Of a stretch of DNA of 64,000 nucleotides, positions 6,602-57,900 are shown one piece after another. The stretch covers positions 20,391,149 to 20,455,148 of the forward strand of contig NC_045146.1 in NCBI RefSeq assembly GCF_008831285.2. Direction: 5' to 3'. Position numbers and translations under genes: made by a program. The notes beneath the pieces are model-generated. The model made no database searches. It was given only the letters and a program-made list of their open reading frames with translations, and was not told the DNA's origin. Numbering within the stretch: the stretch's first letter is position 1; the number at the start of each line of letters is the position of its first letter. Origin of the DNA: Nymphaea colorata. Taxonomy: Eukaryota > Streptophyta > Magnoliopsida > Nymphaeales > Nymphaeaceae.

Positions 6602-6603
<2 letters not shown>

Positions 6604-6682
<79 letters not shown>
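6604..6682 (-). tRNA. tRNA-Leu(TAG): tRNA-Leu, anticodon UAG
   Basis: The minus strand gives a 79-nt class II tRNA. The acceptor stem is GACAGTT/AGCTGTC (one G-T pair). The A box is TGGCCGAGTGG. The anticodon stem CCAGA/TCTGG encloses the loop TTTAGGC, so the anticodon is TAG. A long variable arm follows, then the B box GGTTCAAATCC. It reads CUA-type leucine codons. No intron is present and CCA is not encoded, as is normal for nuclear tRNAs. A T run about 17-20 nt downstream (TTTT near 6583-6586) can serve as the pol III terminator. All arms pair, so it looks functional. Confidence 0.96.
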
Positions 6683-14800: not shown

Positions 14801-14933
14801 TGTGTGTGTGATTATCTACAAGAACACGCGCACACCAACCAAATTCATCAACGCCATATTCTCATCATCTCCTTAATTAATTATTGTTAGAAAGGGAAGC
14901 AGAGGAGAATAAAGGAAGGAGCCTCTCGCATTA

Positions 14934-17247
14934 ATGATGGAGAGGGAAGGGTACTGCACAGGAGATGACGAATCGGATTCAGTGACGATCATAAGACCCT
15001 CCTCTTCCCACAAGGTCAGGAAGAAGAGGAGGTTCAGCCAAGAGCAGATCAGGTCCCTGGAGAAGATATTCGAGAACGAGACCACCAGACTCGAGCCCAG
15101 GAAGAAGGTGCAGCTGGCCAGAGAACTGGGGCTGCACCCCAGGCAGATCGCCATCTGGTTTCAGAACAGGAGGGCTCGGTGGAAGACCAAGCGCGTGGAG
15201 AAAGACTACGGCCTCCTCAAGGCAGATTACGATGCGCTGCTTGCTAGCTTTGAATCTCTCAAACAAGAGAAACAAGCCCTTCTTGAACAGGTAACTTGTA
15301 AGTTTTGCTGTTTGCTGCTTTCTGGTTCATCATATATTCTTCGCGAAGATGGTTTCTGGAACTTCAAATTGAATTTCTTACTAGAGAAAAATACTTTTCT
15401 TTTTCTCGGATTGATCATGCGATTGAAGCGAGCATGCATGTTCCGAGAATCCAAGGTGATCTCGTATTCTTCCCCTTGAGAAGGAAGCTGCCTTCTTAGG
15501 ATTGCTGTGCATGCTGTTACATATATTAAGAAATTAAGATCCATGAGCGTACTAAGCAAATTATAGAACATCCGGCTCATCCCCCTGACTTCGAAAGGCT
15601 GTCTGAACGGCCCTCTCATGAACACAAGCCAGTAGCCATGCAGGAGCGAGCTGAATTGATGCTTGCTTATGTGAAAATTAAATGTTTGTTCTCCAAAAGT
15701 ATCTAGAATATTTATGCGTAGATCCTTTTTTGCAAAACACGTCTCCGTAACATATTTTTTCTGTTCATGATTTGTCTGATCACAAGTCATTAAACCTTTT
15801 TTCTTTCTAATGCAAAAATGAATCTTTGAACGACTTAATTAGACCACTTAGTGAGTCTACATATCTAGAGATAGGCCATGTATAAGCCTTCATCGCCCTG
15901 CTCCTGCGCTGCATGAAAAAGAAAGAAAGAAAAAAGAAAACTCATACAGTGAATAGGTAACCTTGAAACTTGGCCTTGAGTTTTTCACCTTCACACCATT
16001 CCCTTAGACTCACTTTACCATATCAATTGAGCTGCCTATTGCGCAATGATTGGTTCAATTATTGAACTTATGCTGGTTGTCAAATCCATATCGGATTATT
16101 CGGCTTCTCTGACACACTGCTAATTAGGGTGTGAATCATGCGTGACATGAGTGTGGGACACGCTATTATTAGCATGACCAGCACCTAACAATTAACACAT
16201 GCTATCTGCGATAGTTACGTAGTTTTTTAGCATCTTCTGTCATATCTTAGAAATAGAAACTTACTTTTAACATAAACAGCGTAAGAGATAACAAAACTAT
16301 TTAAAATAACAAACACGAACCATCCGTTCTTGTCTTGTGAAAGTTTCGAAACCCCTGTATTTATTTCGTTCAAGCAACCTACTCGATCGGTTGCAACCCT
16401 GGAGGATGATCGTTGCTTCGAAAATAAGAAACTTTTATTTAGTATAAACATTCATTTGTATCTTTCCAGCTTCAAGGCGAGGAATAAATTAGTAATCTTC
16501 CGCGTCCGTGACTCTAGTGGAGACAGGTCGAACGGCCCACCTCTTCGATTCGAGGAAGGGTCAGCTTGAGCCGGTGTACGTGCCCAGTCTGCCTGGTCCA
16601 TCATATATATATATATATAGTCCTTGAATTATCTGATCCTCCTGGTCCAAACTTGACACGCACAACCAGATCTACAGTACAGTTGCCAACATAAATTTAC
16701 AACAGTTCTAGATCCATCCCTGCATTGGATCTTCTCTCAGATCCCGGTCTGTAGCACAAAATATGGGCTTAGATCTGCTTCATATCGGAAATGCTTGAGG
16801 GGATATATACTTGCAAGTTGCATGAAACGGGCAAGTAATTAAGCAAACTATACTGCTGTTTGTTCTGATATACAGATAGAGAAGCTGAGCAGGCTGTTGG
16901 AAAAGCGGCCCGAGTCGGATGCCGGGGAGCAGAGGGCATGGTGCGAGAACAGCGTTGAAGGCTGCTCGGAAAATAGAGACCGGAAATCGGGCTGCCAAAA
17001 GGACATGATGGGTCGGGAAGGAGAACCAGATATGAGGTCGGGTTTGTTGTCAGACAGTGAGTGCAGCAAAGCGATGGAGAAGTCGAGGAAGGAGGAAGAC
17101 CAGGATCATCAGGACGGGGTTCTCGCCGAAATCAACGGCTATGGCTGCGGACCCTCTTGCTTTTCTGGTAGATCCTACGGCCTGGAATCGTCATTATGTT
17201 GCTATCCTGACCAAATTTCGCAATGGCCTTGGGAGCTCTGGCCTTAA
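14934..17247 (+). CDS. HD-Zip class I transcription factor, ATHB7/12-like
   Basis: Two coding exons, 14934-15290 and 16876-17247, joined at a phase-0 GT-AG intron of 1585 bp, give 242 residues. Residues 30-87 form a homeodomain, with [12 protein letters not shown] at its start and the recognition-helix signature [10 protein letters not shown] at 75-84. It is followed directly by a leucine zipper with leucines at 95, 102, 109, 116 and 123. The intron falls inside the zipper, between residues 119 and 120. The [15 protein letters not shown] and [10 protein letters not shown] words and a C-terminal aromatic motif (QWPWELWP, ending at the stop) point to the HD-Zip I clade of ATHB7 and ATHB12. Those are nuclear, ABA- and drought-induced growth regulators; this role is known of the family, not seen here. 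HD-Zip I proteins dimerise and bind CAATNATTG-type sites. Two tandem ATGs (14934 and 14937) start the frame; the first is used. It has no START domain, so it is not HD-Zip III. Confidence 0.93.
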
Positions 17248-20201
17248 ACGTGCCGACTAATTATAGAGAAGAAGAAGAGGAAGAAGAAGTTGGTCATACG
17301 TTGCGGTGAGTTGGAGATGTCGGCCGTTCCTGTAAATTACAAGCGGTCATAACAAGAAAATGCATCGAGATGCTACTAGCTAGCTAAAGCTTCATTAGTT
17401 TGTTGATGGGGGGACGTAGCCCTCCCGTTTGTGCATGTAACAATACTGGACAAAATCTTCCTTAGTCTCTGTCTCTGTCTCTCTCTCTCTGTTATTATGT
17501 GGATCTGATTTACTGACATTTAACAATCAAGAACTGAACTTTTTCCTTCATGAAAAAACCCATTTTTATGTCAACTCTCTCCCTCTCTTTCTCTATCTGG
17601 CTTATAAAATCTGCCTTAACAAGAACACCATTTCGATATTAAATTCTAGGTTCGGACTTTTATAGATTTCAGCACTGTAATTATTTCGTAAGAAAACAAC
17701 TGAAAAATGTGAGATTCAATTTGGAAATATAGCTGAATGCACGATCGCAAAAAACATGTTGTACATACTTGTCTGTTGTGGACTATGCCCAATTGCCCAT
17801 GCATGGTGTTTGAGCCGCTGACTATAGATCCTACTTTTGAGGCAAAAAGCTGAAACAAATGAAACGCTTTTACCTTTATCTGTAAAACAAAAGTTAATGA
17901 GAGTAAGAACATTGTTTGATTGCATGAAACATAAATTCAACTGTAAAATTCCAAGTGTAAAATAACGGATTTTTAGTTGAACTCCTCCAAATGTTTAAAT
18001 TAAATGGTACGTAAATGCTATCTTTTTTTTTTTTTTCTTTCTTTCTTTTCTTCCAGTTTCGTTAGAGTGAGTAAAGGAAGTCCCACCACCTAAGTGAAAA
18101 CCAAAGCCTCTTTCCTACCCTCAAGGTCCAGGCAGCACTGATGCTTGGGATGGAGCCCATATTGAACCCTTCTATTAGCACAAAAAGTATGTGGTGCCCA
18201 TGCCATTAGAACCAGCAACTTCCCATCTACGAATGAGATTGAGTTGCTATGCATACCTTTGTGCACGCACGAAAGGGGATGTGGGGTATTGTTGAAATCT
18301 ATTATAAAATGATGGGCATTTTTTTAACTTTTTTTTTGTTTTTTCAAATCCCTTTTACCCTTTTAAAAAGTTTCTTTTCTTATTCTAGCAAGGGTATTTT
18401 GGTCATTGCATAACCTGGTGCATGCATAGAGTGTGCATATAACCAGCCTCATCTAGAAACACCCCCCCCATGCTGGTTGAAGGCTTAGCCAGGAAGAATT
18501 ATTTGATGATAATTTAGGTACAAATCATCACCCAAAGATTCTGCCACGTAGCTTCCAATAAGTGGGATGAATGCTAACGATACTATCTTGTTGAACATGA
18601 CAAAAAAGAACTGCAAACAATAATGCATCATATTCATGATTTTTTACCTACAAAAAACGGCGTTCCTCTTGAACTTATCAAGGTGAAGAAAATTTTCAAC
18701 AAAGTCATTTAATGTGTCAGCATACTGGTTCTGCAATAGAGTAAATAAACTTTTCCTAGCAATCACCTCTATAACAATCTCTATTATTGGTGGCCCTCTT
18801 GCCCACCCGGGATGAACCAGCAGCAAGGTTCATTGTAACAGCTTTATTGACCAAGCATGTTTGGCTGAGCGGCTAGAGTACAATGGAACCAAAGTAGAGA
18901 CTAGTCTTGGTCTACATGATGCATGCCGAGTTCCGAGCTCCAGTTAAATAATGTCTGTCGTTAGCATGCCAATAGGATTAGCTTGAGATTGATTCTAACT
19001 TCTAAGCATGGATTAATGAGGTGCCCTTGCACCAGAATTGAACGAGGTTTACAAGCACATATTTGGTTCAATCAATGCTGTTTGAATGTTCCCTTTTTTT
19101 GAGCTCACATTGTCACCTCTGCATTCATCAAATTCATGTTTTTACAAATGTAATATAATAAAAGTACTGAAATGCATCACTTAGTCATTATTATATAACA
19201 AGGGTGGAGTAGGTTTTAGATGCCCAATAAAGGATTTGGTTATACATTGGCTGCTTCCATTATCGAAACTCTTATGTACTCAACAAAATTGATTTGCTAT
19301 GCTACAAAATGGTCCAAAGTTACTTGGCCTGTTTCCTCTATTACCCTAGCGGTCAAATTATGCAAAAAATAGCACATACTATGTTCTCATGGCTTTTTTT
19401 CAAATGTAAGAGTCCCATGAGATACTATACGTTACAACTTAATCTTATGGTACTCCATTATGGAGCGCTTTGTTACTTGTAGTATCATCTCATCAAAAAG
19501 AAAATCTGGATCTGAACCCTTTTAAGTGGGCAGGAGCAAGACCTTATTCAGTATGTTTTCTTGACTCCAAAGTTGCTAAACCAAACCGCACATCAGTATG
19601 TTAACTATCTTCTCAATGTTCTCGTGATGCTCATCAGCTGCATCATCGTCTCCATATATGGAGGAGGAGAGCTACCAGTACCCCGAAAAGGGAATAAACA
19701 AAAGGAGATATACTGACGCGCGAAAATGTCACCAAATATCTGGTCAATATGAGTTACACTATTACTGATGATTAAGCAAGAACGTCGATAAAAGTGATGT
19801 CAGCAGATGGAGGTGAGGGGAAAGAAATGGAGAGGTCGACGGTGAGAAGAGAAGGAACGAAGCACTTGTCGTAAGGAGAAAGGGATCTAAGATTTCCTTG
19901 TCGAATGTGTGATGTTCTTCTTGATTTCACCCTGTTTTTTCTGGATATTTTATCTTAAATGAGCTAAAATCTAGGCAAATAAACTTGCCTAAATTTTGAA
20001 GTGGTAAAAGGTAGGATAAAAGATCCGTCTTGCTAGTAAAAGGCGGACTGGGAATAAGACCTATAGAAGGAATGATTAATTCAATGTTGTTAAAAACCAA
20101 AATTTGTTGCATATTGCAAGAGGGATCTAATGAATACATGGTTATCTACAGGCTTGATTTGCGAAAAATATATTACAAATGAGGATCATATCATGGATTC
20201 C
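17248..20201. other. Intergenic
   Basis: The first few hundred bases are probably the HD-Zip I 3' untranslated region. Beyond that the region is AT-rich with short ORFs only, and I recognise no gene or complete mobile element. Confidence 0.5.
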
Positions 20202-20209
20202 ATCTACCT
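20202..20209. repeat. Target-site duplication, left copy (ATCTACCT)
   Basis: This is the 8-bp direct repeat flanking the hAT-like element. The identical right copy is at 23096-23103. Eight base pairs is the typical hAT duplication length. Confidence 0.85.
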
Positions 20210-20714
20210 TAGGGCTGCACACGAGCCGAGTCGAGCTCGAGCTTGCCCAGCTCGAGCTCGACTCGACTCAACGAGCTCGAGCTCGAACTCGAGTCGAGCT
20301 ACCTAACACAAGCTCGAGCTCGACTCGATTAACTCGATTAGCTCGTCTAAATAAAAATGATCCTTCTTTTTAAAATATCTAGTAAATTTCATGACGTGGG
20401 ATGAAATTTGTGAATCACTCAACTCTGCCAACAGTTTAGAGCTGCAAATAGACACCATTTGGTATTAGACTGTTCTCATTATTAAATATTATAGAATCAT
20501 AAGCTGATGACTGAACTGAACAAAATGTAAATAGGACATAATGTATACAAGGAAATAAAAGTTTAAAATTAGCTACACAGTATGGTAAAATAACAGCCAA
20601 CTTCAGTAGCTTCAGCATATGTCCTTTGATGGAAAAACAAACGAGCAGATTCAAGTCCAGATCTGAGCAGAGCATCATCTCCCAGAGGAAATTGGATAAT
20701 AGCAGCAAAGTATT

Positions 20715-21240
20715 GAGCAAGCTTTAGAATATAGTTTGAGAAAACGTAGACAGGAGTCGAGATCAAGGCTATGCAGAACAGAAAATAACCCATGACCTCT
20801 GGCTTTGCATGTAAATCCCCAGCATCCTCAACCTCCCAGCTCCAAAGGCCTGTCCACACAGTGTCTCCAAAGCACTTCCCATACCCAGCTGCCATGATCA
20901 CCAAAACCCAGTTCAAATTTCCAACAGAAATCATCCAATACATAGATGATATAATAAAGGACATGCTCCTTAGTGCAGAACAGAAAATACGCAAATGATA
21001 TAATACAATATATGTTCCTTAGTACAGAACAACTAGCAGATAGAAACAAAGCATTTTTGGTTTGATGTCATGGGCTGCCATGTCTTACCAAGAAGCCAAA
21101 ACCCAGCCCTGCAACCACATAGTTCTCTATGGACACAGCAGCGAGCTCCATAGCCATAGCTTCTTGCTCTCTATCAGTGATCTCCTGCACAGAGTGGGAC
21201 TGCTCTGGTTCTCCAGCAGGGGAAGTGCGTTGGAGACAAT
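20715..21240 (-). pseudogene. Truncated MATE (DTX) transporter fragment inside the hAT-like element
   Basis: On the minus strand a first exon piece (about 21240-21090) carries PLLENQSS and ESKKLW in one frame and ELAAVSIENYVVAGLGFGFL in another. The second frame ends at a GTAAGA donor. A CAG acceptor at 20889 starts the second exon, which reads [18 protein letters not shown] then RMLGIYMQ, hallmarks of plant MATE antiporters. It is broken in several ways. The stretch expected between ESKKLW and ELAAVSI is missing, with a frame change. About six bases are added after MQ. A frameshift follows RSWVI, giving a stop near 20770, and the next MATE-like words ([14 protein letters not shown]) lie in another frame. 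Only the N-terminal third of a normal ~480-residue protein is represented. The intron shows it came from genomic DNA, not a processed transcript. Confidence 0.82.
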
Positions 21241-21414
21241 CTAGCTTACAATGAAGTACGTCAAACATGAGAAGCTAACAACCTAAAAGAATTTAACATG
21301 AGAAAATGTTGTACTTTTACAGATGGATGCACATTCTCGCTGTTCTACTCTTTACTGGCAGGCCCTTTAGTGTAATGTGCACTAAATATTATTGCAGGAT
21401 TCCCAGCCATGGCC

Positions 21415-21620
21415 CATGAATGAATGAATGAACAGAAAAAATCATCCCAGGCAACAGAGCAAGAAACAACGTGAGAAGATAAATAAAAAGAAAGAATAAT
21501 AAAAGCTATTTATTTCAAGCCATGAATGAATGAACAGAAAAAATCTTCCCAGGCAACAGAGCAAGAAACAACGTGAGAAGATAAAGAACAAGAAAGAATA
21601 ATAAAAGCTATTTTTTTCAA
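21415..21620. repeat. Tandem duplication, two copies of ~105 bp
   Basis: Two near-identical units start with CATGAATGAATGAA, contain CCCAGGCAACAGAGCAAG and CAACGTGAGAAGATAAA, and end in AATAATAAAAGCTATTT. They differ by a few substitutions and a 4-bp repeat-unit change. The duplication lies in a non-coding part of the hAT-like element. Confidence 0.92.
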
Positions 21621-23095
21621 TGTTTCATGCCTAGACCCTTTAGTGCCTAAGTGAAGGCCTTGCACACAGGTGGATCAACACATGCCTGGCACACATGTCA
21701 TAAACAATATATAAAAAGAATTTATGTTAATGAAATAAAAAATCACGTGAACATGAAGGAAGAAAAAGGAAATGTGGATCAATGTTGTTCCTGTAAAGCT
21801 TGGTGAACAAGATTTAAGAAAGAAAATATTGGACAGGCGAGATTTGAAGGTTTCTAACATGGCTAAAAACCGTCGACTGCTTAGGAAGAGCAAATTTCTT
21901 CCAAGCAATCACTTTGCACGAGGAAAAAAAATAACAAAATCTCTTTGACCCCTTTCTAGCCTTCTTTCTCATTTCTAACCACCAAAATAGGCATTGCATC
22001 AAGAAATTCAAAACAACAAAACAGGCTTCACAAAACAGGTAAGAAGGAGGAAGAGGAAGAAGATGAACAACAAGGAGAAGAAAAGAAGGTTGAAGGGGTA
22101 CCTGACGTGAAGGCGGGGGCAGAAAGCACGCCTCTAGAAGCAATTACGACCTCAATATTTATCCCTTTCTAAGATCTCTGCCAAAATAAAAAGCAAAAAA
22201 ATGATTAATAAGAGGATGAAGTCAAGGATTTGTTTGAAAGCACAGGCGCAGCACAAGATGTTCAAAACTTTGACCCCTGGAGGAGCATTAGCATACCATC
22301 GGGCGTTAGGCAGAGCAGAGGGCGGTGGTGGGCCGGTGGCGGTGGCAAAGAAGGAAAATGAGGAGGAAATGCAGACAGTGGAGCTGTCGTTCACGTGCTT
22401 GTGCAGACCCTGCGAAGGTGAGTCTGTGAGGATGAGGTGTCACCGTGTCACGGACTCACGAGAGTTTAAGAGAGAGAGAGGCAAAGAAAAAGCGCATGAA
22501 AAAGAGGGGAACATACCTGGTGCTCACACAACAAGCGTTGCCAATCTTTTGGGTCGTCTCTGGATGCTCATTTGTGTTCTTTTCATTGTGTGGACTGTCG
22601 TGGGGAGCCTAAACGAAACGCAGACGGCAGGCCGGATGGTGGAGCTGGTGGTTAGATGTTGAATGCCATTGCCGGACGGTGGAGCTGGAGCCTGGTGGTT
22701 AGATGCCAAATGCCGGCCGGTGGTCCGGTGGAGATGGTGTGCGGCGGTGGCGGTCTGGGCCGTCTGGCGGAGAGGAGAGGACTGGATAGATAGTCGACGG
22801 AAGAGAGAGAAAAGGGGAAAAGAACTTATAACCGATCAATTTTTACCCTAAACCGGTGAACCGGTTTTGGTAAATTTGTGTTATCGGTTTTCAAAATTTA
22901 AACGGTTTTATATAAACGAGTCGAGTCGAGTATAAACGAGTCGAGTTCTTAAAACTCGAACTCGACTCGTTTACTCATTCGAGTTTCATTGTAAGCTTGA
23001 ACTCGACTCGTTTATAAACGAGTCGAGCTCGAGCTGAGTTTAACCGGGCGAGTTCGAGTCGAGCCCGAGCTGGCTCGACTCGTTGTGCAACCCTA

Positions 23096-23103
23096 ATCTA
23101 CCT
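23096..23103. repeat. Target-site duplication, right copy (ATCTACCT)
   Basis: Identical to 20202-20209. It marks the right boundary of the hAT-like element. Confidence 0.85.
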
Positions 23104-23470
23104 TTAGTAACTAGCTAGGATAAGGCAGAGGAGTGTGGTACATGCATGTGCGGACCATAAAAATAATATAGGAGTCATTTAGTTGGGAAAGCATATCATA
23201 CTAGAGAGGGTAAGATGGTGATGAGTTGTAGGAAGATCGATTGTGCATGTATCATAACAACCCTGCCCACTCGGACAATGGGCTTCGGCTGGTAGCTGGT
23301 GGATTCCAACCGACCTCCTAACAGCTTTGGTTTCAACCCTAAGGGCCCGTTTGATGGGCGGGGTAAATTGAGAGGAACGGTTGAAAAATGTACGGGCGGA
23401 TGAAATTTCACCCGCCTGACTGAAAACGTAATAAACATGGTGAAAGTTCACTCGTTTGACGTAAATGGGA

Positions 23471-23543
23471 GCGGGTGAAACTTCAACCGCTCGAAAGTCC
23501 GAGCTCGCAGCTCGGACTTTCGACCGGGTGAAGTTTCACCCGC
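23471..23543. repeat. 73-bp near-perfect palindrome
   Basis: The inner arms CGAAAGTCCGAGCT and AGCTCGGACTTTCG are perfect complements around a 3-base centre. The outer arms GCGGGTGAAACTTCA and TGAAGTTTCACCCGC extend the hairpin, with minor mismatches in between. It lies 128 bases inside the left end of the PIF/Harbinger-like element. Confidence 0.9.
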
Positions 23544-24315
23544 TCGACATGTTTGCCTTTTCACCCCAATTCCTCCCGCTCGACATGTTTGCTTCTTCAC
23601 CCTTCTTCCTCCCTCCGCTGCTCCTCCTCCCTCGCCGTCGCCTTCTCACCGTCGCACCAGAGGCGTCTGCTGGTTCCCTTTCTCTCTTGCTCGCAGCTCC
23701 GCTCCTTCGCTGGTTCGCCAACGCCATAGTCGCCGCTCTCAAGTAACGATTTCTCCTTTTTTCTTGCTCTGTCCCTTTCAGAAACACCCAAATCTATTTG
23801 TTCTCTGTTTTTACACATTGCTGTCGTTGTCTCTCTTTCTCTCTCGTTGTTGCTTCTATTGCTCTCGTTGCATGTAGATTCCATAGTTTATAGAGAGAAG
23901 GAAGGGGACGGTAGGTTGAGCTACGTGGGAGAAATCTGTCTATCTCTCTCTCTCTCTCTTTCTCTGTTGTTGAGGTCCAGATTTCTTAGACGTTTCGTGT
24001 TTTGCTTATTAGTTCAAGATTTAGTTCTTCGCTGACCTTTATCTACAGTCGGGGATTCGAAGAATTTTCTGTTTAGTCCGTGTTTTTTTTGGATCTCCAG
24101 TATAGTAATTGTCTGGATTTCCTGAAGAGTTGCTGATTGCTTTCTTTGGTGCTTCTTTAGGTGCGATGTCCGCCTCTGCTTCGATTTTTTTTCTCCCGCT
24201 TCTTGCCCTAAGTTCTTCTAGATTTGGGCATGTCATTTGCTGAGGAGTCTCTGCGTCCCTCTTTGCCGGCTTGATGTTTTGTTCTGCATAAACATGAAAT
24301 CTTGAGGAGAAAAAC

Positions 24316-24729
24316 TTGATTTGGGCGTTTCATTTGCTGCCCTCTGTTACTGCCCTCTCCACCGCCAGTTGCTCCTTATGCCAAACAGTTGCATATGTGC
24401 CCCTTGTACATATACTAGAGGACAAAATCAAGCATCAACAAGGTAAACTAGTTGAAGCAAATAGACGTGCTAATGCTTCATTTGTTTTTGCTGGTTGGCT
24501 ACTTAGTATGAATGTCTTACAGCAGAAGAATAAAGAAGGGGCACATATGCACAAACCTATGATGGACACCTTACATGAAAGCATTTCGAAGTGGAACCAG
24601 AACAGTGAACTTTCTGAAGCAGTTTTATATATTCAAAGCATGCAAAGACATACGGAGAACCTGGAGAAGGACGTGGAGGATATCTCATTCTTTTGCTTGT
24701 CTGTTTACATGAATTCTCAGTGTGATTGA
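24316..24729 (+). other. ORF inside the PIF/Harbinger-like element, unassigned
   Basis: An open frame of 137 codons includes charged, helix-prone stretches such as EDKIKHQQGKLVEANRRA and MQRHTENLEKDVEDIS. It may be part of the same captured coiled-coil gene as the fragment at 24960-25180, spliced or shifted in frame. I do not recognise the family, and expression is not implied. Confidence 0.25.
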
Positions 24730-24902
24730 TCTCAGGGAACATGCAAATTGGTTATACACATCATTCCTGATACATATTGATCAATGATTTTTTTATTGTT
24801 GTTTTACTTTCCTTTTTTTGAGTCAGACCATGTACCTTGCTTTGTTATTGTCCTCATTCCTTCTAAAATGCTTGTTACATTACAACTGCCAATTCTTGAG
24901 TC

Positions 24903-24938
24903 AGGCCATGCTGCATCCTTAGGCCATGCTGCATCCTT
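24903..24938. repeat. 18-bp tandem duplication
   Basis: AGGCCATGCTGCATCCTT occurs twice in tandem, just before the coiled-coil fragment. Confidence 0.9.
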
Positions 24939-24959
24939 CGCAGTGCAGCTGAAAGAAGC

Positions 24960-25180
24960 AATGAGGCCCAATCTCTACTCATGAAATTTGGGGAAGCACA
25001 AGAAACCATGAAATAGGCAGATGATGTGCTCAATGCATTGCTAGATGCCTATAAAGCTGCTAAGCATGAGACGGTAAGGTGGAAGAAACTTGGGGAAGAT
25101 TTGATGGTGGAGAAGGCTGCCCTCTTTGCCGGCTTGATGTTTTGTTCTGAAGCTAACGATTCACTTTCATTGTTTGAAAC
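24960..25180 (+). pseudogene. Degenerate coiled-coil fragment, possibly kinesin-12-like
   Basis: One frame reads EAQSLLMKFGEAQETMK, then an in-frame TAG, then ADDVLNALLDAYKAAKHET, WKKLGEDLMVEKAAL and on. The charged heptad pattern and the KLGEDLMVEKAAL-type word recall the long tail of plant kinesin-12 (KIN-12/PAKRP/POK) proteins. That assignment is from memory of the family and is tentative. The stop codon and the lack of a start make it non-functional as read. It lies inside the PIF/Harbinger-like element, so it was probably captured. Confidence 0.35.
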
Positions 25181-28311: not shown

Positions 28312-31300
28312 ATGGCTGGCCGCCACGAGAAGGAGAAGGGAGTAAACGTCCAGGTCCTCCTCCGCTGCAGGTATGGAAATGGCGTCCATCTATCTTTCCT
28401 CCTCAAATCAGAGATCGATTTCTTTGCTTCGCCTCCTGATTTTCTTTCTTCCCTTCTCAAATTTCAGGCCATTCAATGAAGATGAGTTGAGAAGCAATGC
28501 CCCTCAGGTCATCACTTGCAATGAGTACCAGCGCGAGGTCGCCGTCTCTCAGAACATCGCCGGCAAGCAGTTCGATCGGGTCTTTACATTCGACAAGGTC
28601 TACTTCCCCTTCTTTAAGCTTTTCCCACACTTTTCCATTAGATAGATCTGTCTGATTTAGTTTCTGAATTTGGGAGCATCCGATTACCCTGCTTCAATTG
28701 CATTCTTGCGTAATGGTTCAAAATGTCGCCATCAAGTGTCTCCCTTGTGTTCTTTCGCCCCGTTGATTTTCTATTTGTTGATTCCTAAGATTATGTCAAT
28801 AGATGACGGATGTGAAGCAACGAGGATATAGTTCTTACCGGGGTCGAACTTTCAAAGATTCGATTTGAAGAGACGATCTAGTGAAGGCCTGTTATTAGTC
28901 GGGTGGGGTTTGCTGCAATCACCTTTAATTTTTGTCTCCGTGTCATGGCACAGGATTTTTTAGGAGATTATTTCCTCCAATGTGCGATCTATAGTTGCAC
29001 GAGATTTGTCAAAGCGATCTGCTCTGAATAATTTCCTATTTCTCGAGCCTTTCCTGGCCATTGTGATGGTAATTTTGGTTCAGAAGCGGGGATTATCTGA
29101 TAAAGGTTGCTGCTCCTGCATTGTTAACCTTTGTTCGATGGAGATGGAAGCACATACATAAAAATAGAGATATCTCTATTCCGGTATATCAATAGGAATT
29201 GCTCCACGACGCACCCGTATATTTTTCTACTGGGGAGGTCTAGAAAAAAACATGATTGTTTGTCTCCTACTGGTTAGGTATGAGTAGACTAGATCATAAT
29301 CTCGGAACCCTGTTTACGTTTGTTTATGCTGTAGGTTTTTGGTCCTGGTGCTCAGCAAAAGGACTTGTATGATCAAGCAGTTGTGCCTATAGTGAATGAA
29401 GTTCTGGAGGGATTCAACTGCACAATATTTGCGTATGGTCAGACGGGAACCGGAAAGACTTACACGATGGAAGGGGATAGCAAAAAATCAAAGGTGATCT
29501 TTTTCTGAAAGGCCGCACTGTCTTCATTGATCCTCATTTTCATCTTTTCTTTTTGGTTACCTTGATTGAATCATTGAAAGACGATTGCATGGTTGTTTCC
29601 TGTTCGTGTTCAATTTAGCATCTCGACTTTCTTTTTTTCTGGGATTTCAGTGTGGCGAGTTGCCTTTGGATGCTGGTGTCATCCCTAGAGCTGTGAAGCA
29701 GATATTTGACACCCTGGAGAGTCAAAGAGCTGAATATAGTGTGAAGGTCACATTTCTGGAGCTGTATAATGAAGAAATTACCGACTTGCTGGCTCCAGAG
29801 GAACTGTCAAAGGTTACATTGGAGGAGAAGCAGAAGAAGCCATTGCTCCTTATGGAAGATGGGAAGGGCGGTGTCCTTGTCAGAGGCCTTGAGGAAGAAA
29901 TTGTAACGAGTGCCAGTGAAATATTTTCCTTGTTGGAAAGGGGGTCTGCCAAGCGGCGAACTGCTGAAACACTACTGAACAAACAGTCTAGGTTTGCATA
30001 TTTGATTTCTTTAGTTCTTTTTCCTTAAAGATGATTTACTTAAGCTTTCTTAATGGTCTTCAAATGCAATTTTCCCAGTCGTTCACATTCCCTATTTTCT
30101 ATTACCATTCACATCAAAGAAGCAACTCCAGAGGGCGAGGAACTTATTAAATGTGGGAAATTGAATTTGGTTGACCTTGCTGGTTCTGAGAATATATCGA
30201 GATCTGGTGCTAGGGAGGTAAGCCTATGACTCCGGCAGCATTTAAGGAATGAAGTAATTTTTCTGGAATTTGTGTCGCCTGTGTGCTTCTGATTATTGCC
30301 AGGAAGTGTGTGTTGTTTTGTAAAGTTTAAATTTATAGACCATTTGAACTAGCTGGTTTTTCAATTTTCAAATCAGGGACGTGCAAGAGAAGCTGGAGAA
30401 ATCAACAAAAGCCTACTTACACTTGGCCGAGTTATCACTGCTTTGGTTGAGCATCTTGGTCACGTCCCATATAGGTGGGTGGGTGCATTTGCGTCTAATG
30501 TGTGCATCTATTTGAAGTTTCTTCACTGATTGGTTAATATTGAAAATTTGAAACTGTCAGGGATAGCAAACTTACCAGGCTATTGCGTGATTCTTTGGGT
30601 GGACGGACTAAAACTTGTATCATTGCTACGGTGTCACCATCTGTTCATTGTTTAGAGGAGACACTAAGTACTCTGGACTATGCTCACAGGGCCAAAAATA
30701 TCAAAAATAGGCCAGAGGTTCGGATAGATACTTTTTTTGTAAACTGCTATTGCATTTATAAATTGTTGCTAGTTGGTACTTGGATGTTTTTTTTAAATCC
30801 TGAAAGCTTTAGTGACTTTATGTTGTTTAGTTGATTCTATTTCTGGATGGCCGGATTGGTTTTCTTTTTTCCACTATTTTTTTGGGGGTTGCTGAGGTTA
30901 CTTGAAGTATCTGATGCCAATGAACATTTTCCAATACAGGAACCAAACACTGGTTCTTGGAATCCAATCCTTTATAAAATCCATCCTTAGTCCTTGCCAA
31001 CTATAATGTTCTTTTGGTTGGTCTCCTGTTCTTCTATACAAACTCAGTTTTCTTTGAGAAGGAAGCCTTATTGCATGGACTACTGCACCCTAATTCGTAC
31101 TGGCCGGGTTTTCCTTTCCAGTTGAGTATTGAGATGATGTGATTGCTGTCCTTCCTTGTGTACTCATACGATCCCAGGGAACCTCTGCAGCTATGTGGAA
31201 CAAGTGGCTGATATTATTCTTGTTCAATTGGATGTGGACTAGCTCATGGTGTTATATTGCCATTTTTTCAAATTATGTACAGTGCTATCCTATGAACCAT

Positions 31301-44580: not shown

Positions 44581-47500
44581 TAGTTCTTTTGTGGAAATCG
44601 AAACGTGTTGACTTCCTCTGTGTTGATCTCAGATTAGGGTTTCTCGAAGGGGCTTTCGGAGGTAACGCGCGCAGGAAGATGAGGAGAAGGAGAGCAGCAG
44701 CAATCACCGGGGCAAAGGGGTGTGGTCCACGTTTTACTACTGTTGCATGGGACTGTTTGGTCGTCCGCAATTCACAGGTGATGAAGGTTGGCTTCGGGCG
44801 GCAGGACATGTAAAGGACGGAGTACAGTTGCAGTGTGCTATCCTTTGTCAGCTGCTTGGGTGGCTCTCTCTGTCTGCATGTGCCATTGAAAGCCTAACTT
44901 CTTGTTCCGAAGCCTCTGTAGGCGAATCTCCTGGCCCCTTTGTGTATGTGTGTATGTTGAAGAAGATGTGGGCTGACATGCAGATGCAGATTTTACTCAG
45001 GGTGGTTGCTCGAGTACGCAATCATTTTTATGTAAACTCTGGCGCTATTGATGGACTGGTTACTCACTCGTTGCTGAAAATGATCTGGCATCTGCAACTT
45101 GCAGGTCCTGCTGCCCGTCCATAATAATTCTGTGGTCCAAACTCCTTTTTCGTTCATTTACATCTAACGAGCATGGTGGCAAAAAATGAGCTTCCACTTT
45201 TTACTGCCACCGTCTTACCCTGTTCATTGCATTCACGAATGTAATTGTCAGGGAAGCAAAACTTGGTAGTCCATTGCTCACTTTGGTGGCACTCATAGGC
45301 GTTAGTGTCATGCAGCAGATTGCTGCCCAATGCCGATCGATGATCTAAGTGGTAGTGTAGTTGAAATTTCCTCGAGCTTTTTCGCTGCTGACGGATCACT
45401 TTTAATCATTTCCTCAAGTTATATCATGTCTTCGATGAACAAAGATTGGTTATTTGAAAACATACGTCCTATCCATGTAAAAGCTTTGCTTGGCACAGAA
45501 ATCGTGATCGTGGCTAGAAACTTTGATCTCTGCTTGGATCCAAGAGGTACCTAAACAGTTGGTTTCTGTGAATAATTCTCCAGATGAACAGGAGGTGAAA
45601 AGCACTATATCAAGAAGTGAAAAGTGTGCTCCATACAAATCAAAGTAGATTCCCTACCATAACAGCGAGACAAGTGGGCCTTGCTTGGCCGTTATGACCT
45701 GAATTCGAGACTCTGGATTGACCCACTGACGAGATAGGCTCGACTAATTAGGCCGCTTCACCAATTAATTGCACCGGGCCTAGGGTGGACTGAGCATTGA
45801 CCCGGTCTGTCAGGTGTATGAGCCCAAAAAGGGTGGGGTTAAGATCCCCCATAAGTTAGGCAATCGACAGACAGATACACCAATGCAGCACCATCCCATT
45901 AGCCCGTAAAATATTGGCCGGTAGATAGCCGATCGTTTTGTGCTGGACCTTGCTGAAAAACCAGGCTGATCTGCGCCGCGACTGACGGGCACACTCAGAC
46001 GTGGGCTACTCGTCCGTGACACTGCTGCCACCTACCATATTAGGTTCCAGCCAAGTGATATCTGGAAAGCATAAGCTCCCAGCGCCCCCAGCTAAAGCTT
46101 TCTTTACTTTGGCGAAACTTTTGTGATGGAGTGACAGAAAGAGCGAAAAGAAACGATAATCATGCTCTCCAATGCAGACTTCGACTTCAGAAAGTCGAGA
46201 AAACAAAGCTGGCCTTCACAAAAGTGCTGCTATACCTAATAATGGATCCTTTCTACTCACAAAACTTTTTCTTCCAAACACTGGTTCATGAAACAGTAGC
46301 TAGATTCTTTAATCACGGCGAGTGCAATCAATTCATTATTTAGTTTAACGAAAAAGACACAAAAGAAAACAAAATTTGTAACTCTAACTGACATATAGTT
46401 TTTTTTTTTTTATAGACAGTTGGTCTTTTTTATTTCACATAAATGACTACATTGCTTGCACATTGAGACGCACCGAGATCTCCTGGCTGGCGCTTTTTGG
46501 TTGAATTTGATAGCTTCGGATCTTAGATCCGAAGCACCATCAAAGAATGTGCTTGTCAAAATCCTCAGTTGATCTCTATAAGATCTAGGTTACACATTAA
46601 AAACAATGGATTTAAGATCCTCAGTTGCATCTTGTATCCGCAATCCTTTTGTGGAAGGATATATATGTTAATTTTTTCGAGATTTATTTATTATTTTTTT
46701 CTGAAAAATATTCACTTGATGTTCGTGTAAACTAATGAGCATCACAGTAATCGCAAATATTTATCCGCAAATATATAAATCACGTTCAGGATTTATATAG
46801 TAGATATGCCATTTGAAAAAATGGTCGAAGGAAGCTCACAGTGATTTATGACATTGCATGAAGGGGGAGCTATGGCATCTTCCCCCTTCCGATCCGGTTT
46901 TCTTTGTAATCGATTTTGTTTCTGTTTTCATTAAACTCAAGCCAATGTTTTAAAACCCGATTACTTGGGACTCGACTCATCCATTCTTGACGAGGACTAG
47001 GACTGAGTTTTGTTGGATATTGTTTATAAAAAAGCAACAACGTATAACTTGTGATTTAAATATAAAAAAGTTGTAAAATGTCTTGAACACATGTACAACT
47101 CAGATAGAAGCCAATCTAACATCATATCATTACTAAATTACATTTTCTCAAAGAAGATATTAGACAATTATGCTGCTGCTCCCGTTTCATAATTGTATAA
47201 TATGTAGCAAGAATCAATACATAAATGAACTCAAAATGTATGCTGTATGTAAAGGTTATGCCAAACTGAAAGACCAAAAGTAAAGAGTCCAATGTCCTAA
47301 GAATTTGAAATAAATACATTGTAAATGAAGTTAAGCCTAATTAATCTTAACTTTTCATTTGTAATAATCTACAAATAAATTTAATAAATGAACAACAATT
47401 CTAAATTCTTATATTACAGTAAGTTAGAAGATTCATGCAAAAAATAAAGTAAGAAACAAACAAATAAATGACCTTATTAATGACAAAATACAAAGTATAT

Positions 47501-50500
47501 TGCAGAGAACAAGCGAGTTTCAGCAAAAAAATGGGTCCCGCTACTGGGTGGAATTGGTAGAGGGCTGAAGCAACTGAGTCAATTTGAGTTGGCGAGTTTC
47601 TAAACATTGACTCAAGCTGGATAGATCCTCTGATCCACTGGGCATTCACATGAGGCTAGTGAGCAATTCCATGTGCACCAAACACACCTTAGGAGGATAC
47701 TTAAGTTTAAAAATGCATTTCAGTTAGATGAATGTTAAAGCCTTCACGACTGGGCATATCATTTTCCTCGTTGTCTTTGCTACGGAAAGTAAAAAAAGGT
47801 GAAAAGATAACAACACTTCTCTCACACCAAACCGTCGCTGTTTCGAGCTTTTTTAGATTATAGGCAAAATAGTATTTTGTCGCTCACTTAACAACAAACT
47901 TGGCGAACGATTACTTGTAGATCTTTGTGCGTGATTAACCCTGAAAGAGGCTTATGTGGACCCTAAGCTTCTGTTGTTATCTTAAGAACAAACTTTACAA
48001 CTTTCTAGTTTCCTCGGAATCTCACTGTTGCAGATAGCTAGCAAATAAAATTTAATTAAAAGCAAAACTAAATAATTCAGGGCGGCTCCAACCAAGAAGA
48101 GGAATAAAGATCTGCAAGAAAGCTAAGCCTCCATTTGAAACATGCATTGTACGTGAAGTACGATCACCTACAAAGATGCAAAAGGCCATGAATTTAAAAA
48201 GCAAGGTCTGAAAAAACAAAGCAATCGACAAGAAGGTCAAAGTACGGGGATGATCATATTATAATTATTTTAATCAGCAATGTATGATTGTTCTAATATT
48301 CAACACTTTAATCTTAAGTAATACGATTTCATTTGTGGCGACTGCGAGTTCGAGACGTTAATAGAAATAGGAAAATGCAAAATATTTTACAAAGAAAAAT
48401 GAAAACGCCGGATCTTTAGTTAGTATTGAAAAAAATCGATCGCAATTTTCAACATTATATTTTTTATTAGCGCTTGCGAACGTGCGTGAAAGAATGAGAT
48501 ACTGGTTACATTTGATGAGATCATGAGCGAGAAAGCAAATAATTGACTTGTAACTTTGGCGGAAGAGGATATGGTATCCAATGGAGAGTTTAGTCCAAAC
48601 ATGAACTTTTGAAAATGATAATTTAATTAACGAATCAAATACACTAAAAAGCAAATGACGATACAAAAATATGCACATGGATTTTACTACCAATGCTAAT
48701 ATGCTAATTTGATGCATGCATCCATGCGAATTAACCTTAGCTGTGCCATCTAAGTCATGAATACCTTAATAATCATGGTTTTTATAAATTTCTTTATAAA
48801 TAAAATATGTTGAAAGATTGCCCTTATTTGATCATCTTTATAAATATTTCTAGTGATGTGTTCATGGGAAACATCATCTTGAAATGTTACCTAGTAGAAT
48901 TTCGAAAACCGCGCGCAAAGAAGTGTTTTCAGATCATATATAGTTCATGCATGTGTTTCCCTTAGTGTCATGACTTTTCGAGGAAATACGTTTCTTACCA
49001 CTTTTGATGGGAATTTTAGGGTGATTAATGTTGAGGCCATTTTGTAAGCAACAAGTTTTTTTTTTAAGTTTCAATTGAACCGTCGTTTTTGTATACATCT
49101 GAATGACATTAAGGTTAGATGGAAGTGGTGATTACTAGTTGCATAATCTGACAACTAATTTTGCAAAGGACATGAGTTGTTTTGTCAATTCAGAATGGCT
49201 TACATGCTTCGAAAGTGGATTATGACAATGAAAAGCCTAAAAAATTCACAGAATAACAAAAATATGTTACTCGAATGTTGTAATTGCTCGCCTGGTTTAT
49301 GTTTTTAATATATGTCAAACATAAAAGAGTGACTTACAGCTGAACTTTAAGAAGCATAATAGTTTTGCAACCCAATAGTTAAGCTGATACTTTCTATATG
49401 TATAAGGTATACAAGCATTTTTAATTAAAGTTACACTATAGATCATATGATAAAACAAAAGGGGGTTGTATCTTTGGTTAATTTGCATGGAAGTGCAAAT
49501 ATGTACGATTCAGTGCGTAGGGACAAGAAGTTAGTCATAAGTAGAGATAATGATTTTATCGAGGATGCTTTATAAAGTTGAACAAAAGGATGCAAAAAAG
49601 TATATTAATTCTGTTGCAACTGAGTTTTCAGAGAAGGAAAGATTAAAGAAATAAGAAAATAGTGTCAAATACTCTTTTTCATATGCTCCTAAAGTTCTTC
49701 CAAATTCAACTTGTATTGCTCAAAAATTACGAAGTCAGAGTTTCGATCAAGATATTTACTTAAAAATGGGTAACACTAACGATGAACATTTCTTAGTTTA
49801 TTTTTGTGTGGGTTGTGAAGATTTAGGTGTTGACGAGTCATTCCTGAAGCAAGACGAAGGAAAGCTATTGACAAATTAATTAAAATAATTAATCATGAAG
49901 AATGACATGGACAAATTAAATAAAATTATATCAATTGGTACGAGTTGAATCTGCAAGGCTAAGAAAAAGTTAGAGCTTCTACAAACGGAAGGTCAAATCA
50001 ATGTTTATGTTGTTAGTTTATAAGTCGTTCAGACTCGTTATTTTTTCTGACCACTCCAATTTCCGATATTGAAGTGAAAATTAACAATTCCGTCTGGGAT
50101 ATTTTTATAGCGTTAAAATGAAATTAGCGTTAAAATGAAATAACTTGATGTTGCCCGTTTTGCTTGTCGAAATATATCATATTTTAAAGTTCTCAAAAGT
50201 TCTTTTATGAAAAAATTGCAAGTTAGCAATAACTTGGGCCGAGCTCAAATTAAATAAATAATATCTTGTTGATTGATGAATCATCCAGCTTATTTCAAAA
50301 GCAAAGTTGGAAATGTTTGCAATTAAGTTCACTTGAACAAAGCTAGACTTTTCATTACCAGGTAATCCGTATATTAAAAACCCAAATCAACATCATTTGA
50401 AGGTGGTCATATCGCAATCAAAGTGGAAGTTCGTCATCAAGAACAATAATATAGTATTTCACGAATTTTTCATAAAGATTGAGTATTTCATGAATTTGTC

Positions 50501-53116: not shown

Positions 53117-54856
53117 CTAACAAACTAGGTCGCATTCAAAATGGCTCAACTCGAAGGAGTCGATCGCCTTCTGGCTCAATCCGGGGCAGTTCCTTAGGTT
53201 CAACGTCGTCAGCCACAACATTTTGTGGAGATGAGCCAAGTCTGCATCCGTAATAGTGCCGCCTGAAACGTCTAAATCCCTTAACTCCGTGCAGTAGAAG
53301 GCAATCACCCGCAGACAATGGCCACTCAGCCTCGGGCAGTCACCAAGGCTTAGTGACTTCAGCTGTGGACCGAAGCAACGACATATCTCAGAAATGGAAG
53401 AATCAGTTAAGCCTGTACAGCCATTTAAGGTCACCCTCTCAATGGGGCGGACTTCCAGACCGGAGCCCATCATCAGTAGGCTGGCAAGACCTCGATCCGA
53501 TACTTGCTCCAGGCCAATGAGCTCCACTTCGCGCAGGTTTGAGCAAACACTTCCTATCCAATCCAGGAAAGCGTCCCCTAGCAAAACGCAGCATCCCACC
53601 ATTAGGGTTTCCAGTTTATTGCAGGAAGGTGGTGAGTTTAAACCTGCCCATGATCTGCTCGTCTCTACAATGGCGTTGCATCTTGTCAGCGAGAGGCTCT
53701 TGAGGTTTTTGGCATACCCAGAAAGGAACTCCACCAACCCACTGAAAGAAACCCGGTGGCACGCCTCCAGAGCAAACTTCTCCAATGCACCTACCCCTCG
53801 ACCTATTGCCACAAGACCCTCATCGTTCAATGCCCAGCTCCCGCTAATGGATACGCTCTTCAGATTGGAGCACTCCATTCCGACGGGCCTAAACCTGGCC
53901 AAGCTCCGCAAGTCAGGAGAGTCGAGGAAAGCAACATCTTTGTTCTCCACGTCGGCGCCGCTGGCATTCTGGGTTGCAACGTCGAAGGAGTAACCTTCGA
54001 GAGAGAGCGAGGCGAGGGCCCTGCAGTGCCTCACTAAGGCCAGCACAGCGCGAAGATTCGCGCGAAGCTGTGCGAGCTTGAGCCTCTTGAGATTCGGTAG
54101 TCCTGCGAGAATCGCGAACACGCCTTCGTCGCCGACGAGCCGGCAGCCCTTCACGGAGATGGAATGGAGGGTGGGAGTGTAGGCCCCGAAAGCCTTGAGG
54201 CTGCTGTTCCCGATGTTTCTGCAGGACTCGACGCTTAGTGTGGTCAGCTTCCTCAGCCCTCTCGCCACCGCCACCATCCCCTCGTCCGTGATCAAGGGGC
54301 ACTCGCACAGATCGAGTTTCTCCAAGAGAGCACAACCTCTGGACACGCAGACGAGCCCCCTGTTGGTTACGTAGAGACAACCCCAGAGGGCGAGCGACTT
54401 GAGGCAAGGGAAGCCGGAACCGACGATATCGAGGCCACAATCGGTCACCCCATGCGGCACTCGAGTCGAGTACGACGCCGCCTTCCGGACAAGGAAATCC
54501 CCCCTGATGCTCAGATCGCCGACGATCCCCTTCGCCCACTTGCAGACGGCCATGGCGGCCAGCCTCGTGTCCATGGCATGGCTCCCCTCTAAGCACCTCT
54601 TCATTCGGTCTCCCGCGCCGGACTGGTTGGCCGACTCCTTCACCTTGAAATCCGATATCTTCATGTGAGCTTGCAGTAGCAGAAACTTCTTGCACACGGC
54701 GGCACACAGCCATCGATCCGTAGGGTCGGGGTTGTAGCTGAATATCTCCGCGATGCACTCGTCCGGCAGACGATTAAATGGGTTCTCCCTGTCGTTACCT
54801 TCTCTCGGCAAACCCCTAGTCTTCTTCCTCCTCCTAACTTCTGCTGCCACCACCAT
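53117..54856 (-). CDS. EBF-like F-box/LRR protein, intronless
   Basis: A single uninterrupted frame of 579 residues. An RRRKK cluster lies at 8-12 and an F-box near 27-65, starting NRLPDECIAEIF. A linker contains DTRLAAMAV and GDLSIRG. About 16 cysteine-containing leucine-rich repeats follow to the C-terminus (such as CPLITDEGMVAVARG, CTGLTDSSISEI and CPRLSGHCLRVI), ending HFECDLVC. The linker words and C-terminal shape resemble EIN3-binding F-box proteins (EBF1/EBF2). Those act in nuclear SCF complexes to ubiquitinate EIN3/EIL1 and restrain ethylene responses. EBF1/2 are longer (over 600 residues) and, as I recall, have one intron, so this may be a divergent paralogue with other targets. The frame stays open upstream for 54 more codons, but a TATA box at 54923-54916 lies inside that extension. 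I therefore start at the Met at 54856, about 60 bases downstream of the TATA box. Confidence 0.9.
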   Translation of the reverse strand: MVVAAEVRRRKKTRGLPREGNDRENPFNRLPDECIAEIFSYNPDPTDRWLCAAVCKKFLLLQAHMKISDFKVKESANQSGAGDRMKRCLEGSHAMDTRLAAMAVCKWAKGIVGDLSIRGDFLVRKAASYSTRVPHGVTDCGLDIVGSGFPCLKSLALWGCLYVTNRGLVCVSRGCALLEKLDLCECPLITDEGMVAVARGLRKLTTLSVESCRNIGNSSLKAFGAYTPTLHSISVKGCRLVGDEGVFAILAGLPNLKRLKLAQLRANLRAVLALVRHCRALASLSLEGYSFDVATQNASGADVENKDVAFLDSPDLRSLARFRPVGMECSNLKSVSISGSWALNDEGLVAIGRGVGALEKFALEACHRVSFSGLVEFLSGYAKNLKSLSLTRCNAIVETSRSWAGLNSPPSCNKLETLMVGCCVLLGDAFLDWIGSVCSNLREVELIGLEQVSDRGLASLLMMGSGLEVRPIERVTLNGCTGLTDSSISEICRCFGPQLKSLSLGDCPRLSGHCLRVIAFYCTELRDLDVSGGTITDADLAHLHKMLWLTTLNLRNCPGLSQKAIDSFELSHFECDLVC

Positions 54857-54869
54857 TTCATAGACAAAG

Positions 54870-54887
54870 AGAGAGAGAGAGAGAGAA
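54870..54887. repeat. (GA)n tract in the EBF-like leader
   Basis: A GAGA/CTCT tract lies about 15 bases before the start codon, at the expected start of transcription. It reads as CT on the coding strand. Confidence 0.85.
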
Positions 54888-54915
54888 TCGAGGTGTAGGG
54901 AGGCAGTAGATGTGG

Positions 54916-54923
54916 CTATATAG
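54916..54923 (-). promoter_or_regulatory. TATA box of the EBF-like gene
   Basis: CTATATAG lies about 30 bases before the GA tract and about 60 before the chosen ATG. It implies a very short leader and argues against the longer upstream open frame being translated. Confidence 0.6.
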
Positions 54924-54929
54924 GGAAAA

Positions 54930-57900
54930 GGAATGGTGCAGGATTCATTATGAGCCAGGTGTGTGAGGGAGACTCCCGGGAGGGAAAAAAAGAAAAAAGA
55001 AAAAAGAAGAGAGAACAAAGACGGGGCTGGGAAGGGGGATTATAATTTCTGAAGATTTCAGAGAAACGTGGGGATCAGAACTGGCAAAAAAGCTAAACGT
55101 GGATGGTCATGAGCGCACGGTTTTCAAATTCATACCCCATCTTTGGCACATGCATTGAGTGCTCTCAGTAGCCTTGTCTTTTTGTTATCGTCTTTCCTTT
55201 TTCCTCTACCACAAGGTGAAAAAAATACAAGCATGATGAGATTATTCATCTCGCCCTGCGATCCATACAACTAACAAAGGATGGGCCTTCAATGTTCCGT
55301 TCCGGTTGCTTCCTGCTCTTGAATTCTGTCCAAATGAACAAGTACTTCGCCCCTTAACAAACACTTTTGACACATTAGAGTCCACAGGTCCCACTTGTTA
55401 GATGGCATTTCGGACGTCCTTTCGGCGCATTCCCGGCTCCACTCATCACGTTCTCCAAACTCAAAGTCAAGCGATCTCGGTCCACCCTCATCCTGACAAC
55501 CCATCAGTCTCCTTCTCAAAGTTTTCAATCCATGCATCACGGGCCAAAAGTCTGTTATTTATTGCGAGTCCGAATAAAGAGCTTGCTGAGCGGCTGACGC
55601 AGTGTTATCCACACCAGCAGACGAACTCTTCACATATATAGCGAACACAAAAGCAGGGTCTAAACGCCTATCTACTCAAGCCTGCTCACAATTTATACCT
55701 ATCAATGCTTGACAGCACTCGGTTTTAACTTAACGTGGCCTCGCCTGAGCTCCGTTCACGTCGCTCATGAAAAATGCGGGCGTCGAGTTCAGATCACACA
55801 GAGGATCAGCTGGCGCACTGATTCTGTGGGACGACCTAACTAGCTTTCCATCTACCTGCTGTCGAGAACCATTTTCCGCTTGGCTATATGGTATCTGTAA
55901 TCATCTCTACAACGAATTACTCTCCGGCAGCCCGGGTAGATCCCCAAAACCGCGTGAATAGTGTCGGAAGGGACCGACCTGAGATGTTTGACCGAGACGA
56001 TACAGCCCATCGGATTCTTCTTTTAGTTGTTATTTTAAAAGATTTTCCGGGCATGAGCCAACTTGAACAAGTGGATTTCATTATTCAAAGTGGTGTCGTC
56101 TCAAAAGAACCACTGGAAATGGCATTTCCTTCCCCCTTTCTTTTCGCAGATTGCAACTTGGAGGATTCCCTGTCGAGAATTATGGGAGGCTGGATAATAA
56201 TGATCTATAGTAGGTAGATCTCGGAGAAAAAGAAATGGAAAAAGGAGAAAAGTATTGTGGGCATGAGAATTTCAAAACTAAGAGAAGGTTTAAGATAACA
56301 GAGATATCAACCAATCATTTGGGTCGGCAGATTTCATGGAGTTTCCAACAGTTTTCGTTCGTAGACAAGGTGCTTTTGATGAGTGAACCTGCGTTGGGCC
56401 AAGATTTAACGAAATGAGCACGGACTACAGTCGGTTTTTCTTCACACATAAATATATGTTTGGACCAATCTCGATACTTTCCAACTTCCAATGTCGTTTA
56501 CGAAACATAAAACCGATTTGATGCATAAAATTCCAATTCTCATCCTTTTGAGATTAAAATGGTAATCTCTCTACAATGGAAAACAAAATATATAATTGGA
56601 AGGAGCGGAATTGTGTTTAATTGAACATCAAGCCGACACGGGGACCGGACTATATTTCTGTGTGTAGTCGGAAATTGGTCAGGAGAATTAAAACTTGATC
56701 AAGTTACATTTGGGCAATCTGCGTCTACCAAACTGGGTCTGGAGAGGATTGACTAGGCTTCTTCGCTTGAGCGGCACTGCGTTCCGGAGTAACGCTTCCG
56801 ACTTCGCTTACTGCCTTTGATCGCATCGTCAGCATGTCAGCCGTCGCTCAAGATTCATGCAGCATAAGTACGACTACGGATACCAATGATCAGTACTCTC
56901 CTCTTCTTAATTCTGCCTACAAATTATTAATGTTGGACTTAACAGACTTGAACTAGTCGCTGCCTGGGTCAATCCACCGGTTTTTTTTTTTTCCTTTTCC
57001 TTTTGTTACATTATGCACTTGCCATAATTTTTTTTTGCCAATAACAAATGCATTTCGCTGAAGAATTTAGGGTTCGCCAAACATCGAGATTCTTGCCATT
57101 TCGATTTTATTCCCCTCCCTCCGATAAGCCTAATGAACGGCAGCCATTGAAGATTCAAAACTGAACAACAGGAGAGAATGGGATTGATGACATTTCTTCT
57201 TCTCTTCCCTCCATTTTCGTCTTATTCCGAGCCGGAACGCCCTTACAGCCACAGGCATCCTTCATTCTTAAAATAATATTATATTTTGTTGTTGTATTCC
57301 CTTATCACTCTGCACATACACTCGATTTGTCACAAAAGACAAAGCAGCATCCACGGCAAGGAAGTAAATGAGACTGACCGACTTCCGCGCATAAAGCTTC
57401 GATGCAGAGAGTCCTACAGTGGCACGCTGTTTGGCCGCGTGAAGGCCCCCGGCCAGAGCCCCAGCTACTCGATCAAGAACACCAATATTCTATCATCGCC
57501 TTTACGCCTTCCACCATCCCTCCTACATGCACTTGGCCCTTATGTGTGCTATTCTGCATTTATTGATAATTCTGCAACTTGGGAGACAAGCCAACTTTAT
57601 TCGAGCTCTAGTTGGAAGAAAAGCATTTATTCAGTCCTCCTGTCGTCACATACTATTGATCCCTGTAAGAAAGATGAGTTTGGTTTAATTTCACCTTATT
57701 CTCGCTATCGAAATTAATAGCGTTTACTATTGTTATCATATGAAGTCAAGGCCAGGGTGAAACGACTGGCCTGCGAAATGTTCTCCTCATCACGCTGAAA
57801 TCAGAGCTTGAGATGGTGCACGCAGATTATTTGATGCGCCTCAGAAAACTTTGTGAGAAGGTTGCCTGTCAGGAGAGGAAAGCTTCTCCTTCATCTTCTT

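Follow-up and report, generated by a model that had tools for sequence, protein, structure and literature searches.

How did a piece of a MATE transporter gene come to lie between a matched pair of terminal repeats in the genome of Nymphaea colorata? We analysed a 64,000-nucleotide stretch of contig NC_045146.1 (the window; all coordinates below are positions within it unless another contig is named). Very probably, the interval in question is a complete non-autonomous plant element of the hAT superfamily, of the Pack type, that carries a two-exon MATE piece from genomic DNA.

A first-pass annotation had proposed a 2886-bp element with matching ends, a perfect 8-bp duplication and subterminal arrays, and on all of these points we agree with it. 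The element spans window positions 20210–23095, 2886 bp, between exact 8-bp copies of ATCTACCT. Its end sequences are TAGGGCTGCACACGAGCCGAGTCGAG (left) and TAGGGTTGCACAACGAGTCGAGCC (right, read on the other strand), identical at 11 of their first 12 bases. The boundary features are:

20202–20209, left target-site duplication ATCTACCT, identical to 23096–23103
20210–20221, plus strand, left terminal inverted repeat TAGGGCTGCACA, 11/12 match to the right end
20222–20343 (inner edge approximate), left subterminal array of CGAGTCGAG and GAGCTCGAG motifs, partly self-complementary; from motif counts, a tandem array at 20222–20328, and inverted repeats
22911–23083, right subterminal array of CGAGTCGAG motifs and TATAAACGAGTCGAGT repeats; from motif counts, and direct and inverted repeats
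23084–23095, minus strand, right terminal inverted repeat TAGGGTTGCACA, 11/12 match to the left end
23096–23103, right target-site duplication ATCTACCT, identical to the left copy

The arrays are confined to the two ends. Across the 64-kb window CGAGTCGAG has 13 sites. The two arrays of the element hold 12 of these, 4 at the left (141 bp, 20210–20350) and 8 at the right (186 bp, 22910–23095). GAGCTCGAG has six sites in the window and none outside the element, where 5 are at the left end and 1 is at the right. The array motif occurs in both orientations directly inside each end.

These features point to the hAT superfamily. The duplication, exact on both sides, has the 8-bp length found in that superfamily. 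The Ac branch of hAT has the duplication consensus nTnnnnAn. That pattern is not matched by ATCTACCT, which fits nnnTAnnn, given as the consensus of the Buster branch (PMC3517528), though a single insertion site does not decide between the two branches. The 12-bp termini are short inverted repeats of the hAT kind, for which the same source gives a range of 5–27 bp (PMC3517528). A repeated short motif in the subterminal region, another hAT trait, is present as well; in Ac such a motif is repeated in the subterminal 200 bp, as hexamers bound by the Ac transposase (PMC3260210). Six-frame searching of the element against Pfam (stops read as X) found no transposase domain at E ≤ 1, in keeping with the annotation's claim that none is encoded, so the evidence for hAT consists of the termini, the arrays and the duplication. 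The same search returned MatE at E 0.00039 (20.6 bits, under the cut-off of 24.9). It also returned MFA1_2 at E 0.89, which we rejected as a chance match.

No detectable transposase, combined with an interior derived in part from a host gene (PF01554, 7dqk), is what characterizes Pack-type elements. The gene piece here comprises parts of two exons and the intervening intron of a plant MATE (DETOXIFICATION) transporter gene. Its parts, with one short partial copy, are:

21089–21148, minus strand, MATE exon part 1 (ELAAVSIENYVVAGLGFGFL); the joined peptide matches PF01554 at E = 1.7e-9
20889–21088, minus strand, presumed intron GTAAGA...CAG, 200 bp, phase 0, with a 49-bp imperfect tandem repeat; from the sequence and the gap-free alignment of the joined peptide
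20772–20888, minus strand, MATE exon part 2 (39 aa), followed by an in-frame stop; Pfam PF01554 E = 7.4e-6, PDB 7dqk E = 3.4e-9
20686–20772 (far boundary approximate), minus strand, MATE-derived sequence in another frame after a frame break; from an 86-aa read-through match
21220–21238, plus strand, 19 bp that repeat a section of exon part 2 in inverted orientation (95% complementarity with 20862–20880), possibly due to chance; from an inverted-repeat search

A Pfam comparison of nine separate reading frames of the element gave a single MatE match, that of exon part 2, which ends at PF01554 profile position 83. A TMEM132_C hit to another element frame (E 0.14, under the cut-off) was discarded as a chance match. 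Exon part 2 alone also matched PDB 7dqk, 'Protein DETOXIFICATION', with 39.2 bits. Neither the 68-aa frame of exon part 1 nor the post-break stretch 20686–20772 had a Pfam match when searched by itself. The 48-aa peptide spliced from both exon parts gave the PF01554 (MatE) match listed above, and positions 1–49 of the joined query aligned with 7dqk chain positions 82–130 at E = 4e-11 (45.7 bits), gapless across the joint. Reading through the frame break, the 86-aa sequence matched PF01554 at E = 8.9e-14 over profile positions 27–108 of 161; the fragment covers about half of one MatE profile. These matches sustain the annotation's claim of host-derived MATE sequence inside the element.

The gapless match across the presumed intron supports the retention of a phase-0 intron, which in turn argues for capture at the level of DNA. 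The piece was thus probably taken from DNA, not from mRNA. Because its coding sequence is partial and frame-broken, we regard it as a pseudogene fragment. A reading frame that opens with ATG leads into exon part 1, from which splicing to exon part 2 would be possible. Relative to what we take to be the plant motif YMQRSW, the SQ in MQSQRSW resembles a 6-base insertion. A Pack-type element would also have its donor gene somewhere else in the genome. In the rest of the window, a tblastn search for a donor or second copy gave E values of at least 0.89 among the best 10 matches listed. A blastn search there gave a best E of 0.15, with lengths up to 77 bp, among the best 30 matches listed, so that neither search turned up a clear relative.

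About 2.1 kb of the element interior is without identified source, and we count this against our best reading. Two features stand out there:

21420–21620, tandem duplication of 102 bp, two copies with 95% matches; from repeat searches
22296–22790 (edges approximate, by eye), G+C-rich stretch with GGTGGAGCTGG-type repeats; from the sequence and a 40-bp tandem repeat at 22631–22723

The G+C-rich stretch had no Pfam match. As for a second captured gene, the AQYFAAIIQFPLGDDALLRSGLESARLFFHQRTYAEATEVG stretch was searched against PDB up to E 10 and matched nothing there; the 64 aa that include it likewise had no match in Pfam. A search of window positions 19000–25000 for RNA families found none.

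How such an element would arise and move can be outlined by analogy with described systems. Termini and subterminal arrays would be kept while the interior is filler, part of that filler being the MATE piece. A hAT transposase supplied by an autonomous relative elsewhere in the genome would bind the subterminal motif, cut at the termini and paste the element in trans, leaving the 8-bp duplication. Three capture routes appear in the literature: repair errors after excision (PMC3260210), template switching (PMC8277862) and joint mobilisation of neighbouring elements (PMC8903248). Here the MATE piece would probably have been gained by template switching during break repair in an ancestor element or else by joint mobilisation, in which two neighbouring elements move together with the host DNA between them. 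We infer capture by the element itself, as against capture by an ancestor or carriage as a passenger between two elements.

The most basic challenge to this account holds that the matching ends and the duplication arose by chance around an old MATE pseudogene in the chromosome. We scanned the whole window for exact 8-bp repeats bounding 12-bp termini with a match of at least 11/12, and found two pairs, the second of them inside the arrays. Of 20 simulated sequences as long as the window (second-order Markov), 4 also yielded one such pair, so an 8-bp duplication with 12-bp termini is by itself not decisive and could arise as this challenge supposes. The case for an element is strong only because duplication and termini bound both motif arrays, and these arrays are limited to the two ends. 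Aligned with each other, the outermost 60 bp at either end score 38, which none of 4498 random place pairs reached (5000 drawn, 502 touching 20100–23200 dropped); the best random pair scored 36, so this score is a modest control on its own. Taking these together, we find coincidence barely credible.

If the element is real, the MATE piece could still have arrived as the cargo of a different mobile element, for instance a Helitron or MULE, that inserted into the hAT element. The composite interior, in which further short repeats accompany the 102-bp tandem duplication, would suit such a history. Against it, a scan for exact duplications of 5–10 bp next to 12-bp termini matching at 10/12 or better, which degraded nested elements and Helitron ends would escape, gave 15 pairs, all 15 in the subterminal arrays; we consider nesting very unlikely. 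A variant that touches only the route has a firmer footing: two hAT elements flanked the MATE piece and their outer ends later acted as one, with no template switching involved. Joint mobilisation has been put forward as general for Pack-type elements (PMC8903248), and the right array holds internal inverted repeats such as multiple ends could leave. Within the element, however, the 16- and 17-bp end sequences (up to 4 mismatches) were found only at its own termini, a weak objection in that the model allows internal ends to have been lost. This route is a tenable possibility, to be held tentatively. A bolder proposal concerns function, namely that a hAT family captures gene pieces repeatedly in this plant and that the MATE piece affects its donor transporter gene, through either an antisense transcript or a short chimeric protein; we judge this very improbable.

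The window contains a homeodomain-leucine zipper gene (exon 14913–15479, Homeodomain and HALZ), a kinesin gene at 29570–30028 and an F-box/leucine-rich-repeat gene at 53117–55039, and a tRNA-Leu gene was predicted at 6603–6682 on the minus strand. HALZ is a mark of plants, and the three protein-coding genes, taken with the plant-type MATE piece, point to nuclear DNA of a plant. A second short hAT-like candidate was noted at 46935–47617, with 667 bp between exact 8-bp repeats of ACTCAAGC and termini CAATGTTTTAAAACCCG and CAATGTTTAGAAACTCG matching at 14 of 17 positions; it is statistically weak alone, as 98 of 4498 random pairs align equally well. A 37-bp inverted repeat at 23469–23545 (95% complementary, 3-bp spacer), near GGGCCCGTTTGATGGGCGGGG at ~23343, may belong to a further small element next to the hAT element.

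The annotation had also remarked that gene capture is less documented for hAT elements, and this is a fair statement: PMC3260210 calls it rare in hAT, yet documents it, with gene fragments in 2 Ds2 and 9 Ds-l4 maize elements. A close parallel is maize Ds2-22, a Ds2 element of the Ac/Ds family with filler DNA (PMC3260210). Like the Nymphaea element, it is a non-autonomous hAT with an 8-bp duplication, short termini and subterminal repeats, and its captured piece consists of two exons with their intervening intron, derived from a host gene. The gene in Ds2-22 encodes an IAA amino acid hydrolase, whereas here it is a MATE gene. Ds2 has ~200 bp of each end in common with autonomous Ac. Ds elements have termini C/TAGGGATGAAA and AAACGG subterminal repeats (PMC3260210), where ours has TAGGGYTGCACA and CGAGTCGAG arrays. 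The Ac/Ds terminus and that of our element are alike in the first five bases.

Other hAT elements with gene-derived interiors have been described. Pack-hATs, so named in maize (PMC8903248), share with our element hAT termini, an 8-nt duplication, a non-autonomous nature and internal coding DNA; they differ in species and in the family of ends. Hatvine-6 of grapevine, likewise hAT, has variable, gene-derived interiors matching host introns and exons. Its duplication length is 9 bp as opposed to 8 bp here, and its members are described as sharing transposase coding sequence, whereas none was detected in our element (PMC2528002). In animals, hAT elements make up 208 of 370 Pack-TIRs (PMC8277862).

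The family of ends in our element was not found by text searches of open-licence papers, judged by their titles, and it may nevertheless have been described. When viral contigs were searched with the terminal pattern, one match appeared, within a short inverted repeat of the phage-like contig L001, and we set it aside as unrelated. A longer pattern, run over genome contigs, gave no match. At L001 2536–2694, TAGGGTTGCACAGGCCGAGCCGAG is followed ~150 bp on by the inverted end GTGCAACCCTA, a resemblance to the element ends that we put down to chance; by eye, reading frames of this contig resemble phage terminase, portal and capsid genes.

Since gene-carrying hAT elements are already known, the Nymphaea element is an ordinary though clear example of them. 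It offers a clean, structurally complete case of a gene piece in a hAT element with the intron kept, and gene pieces of this kind are easily misannotated as transporter genes.
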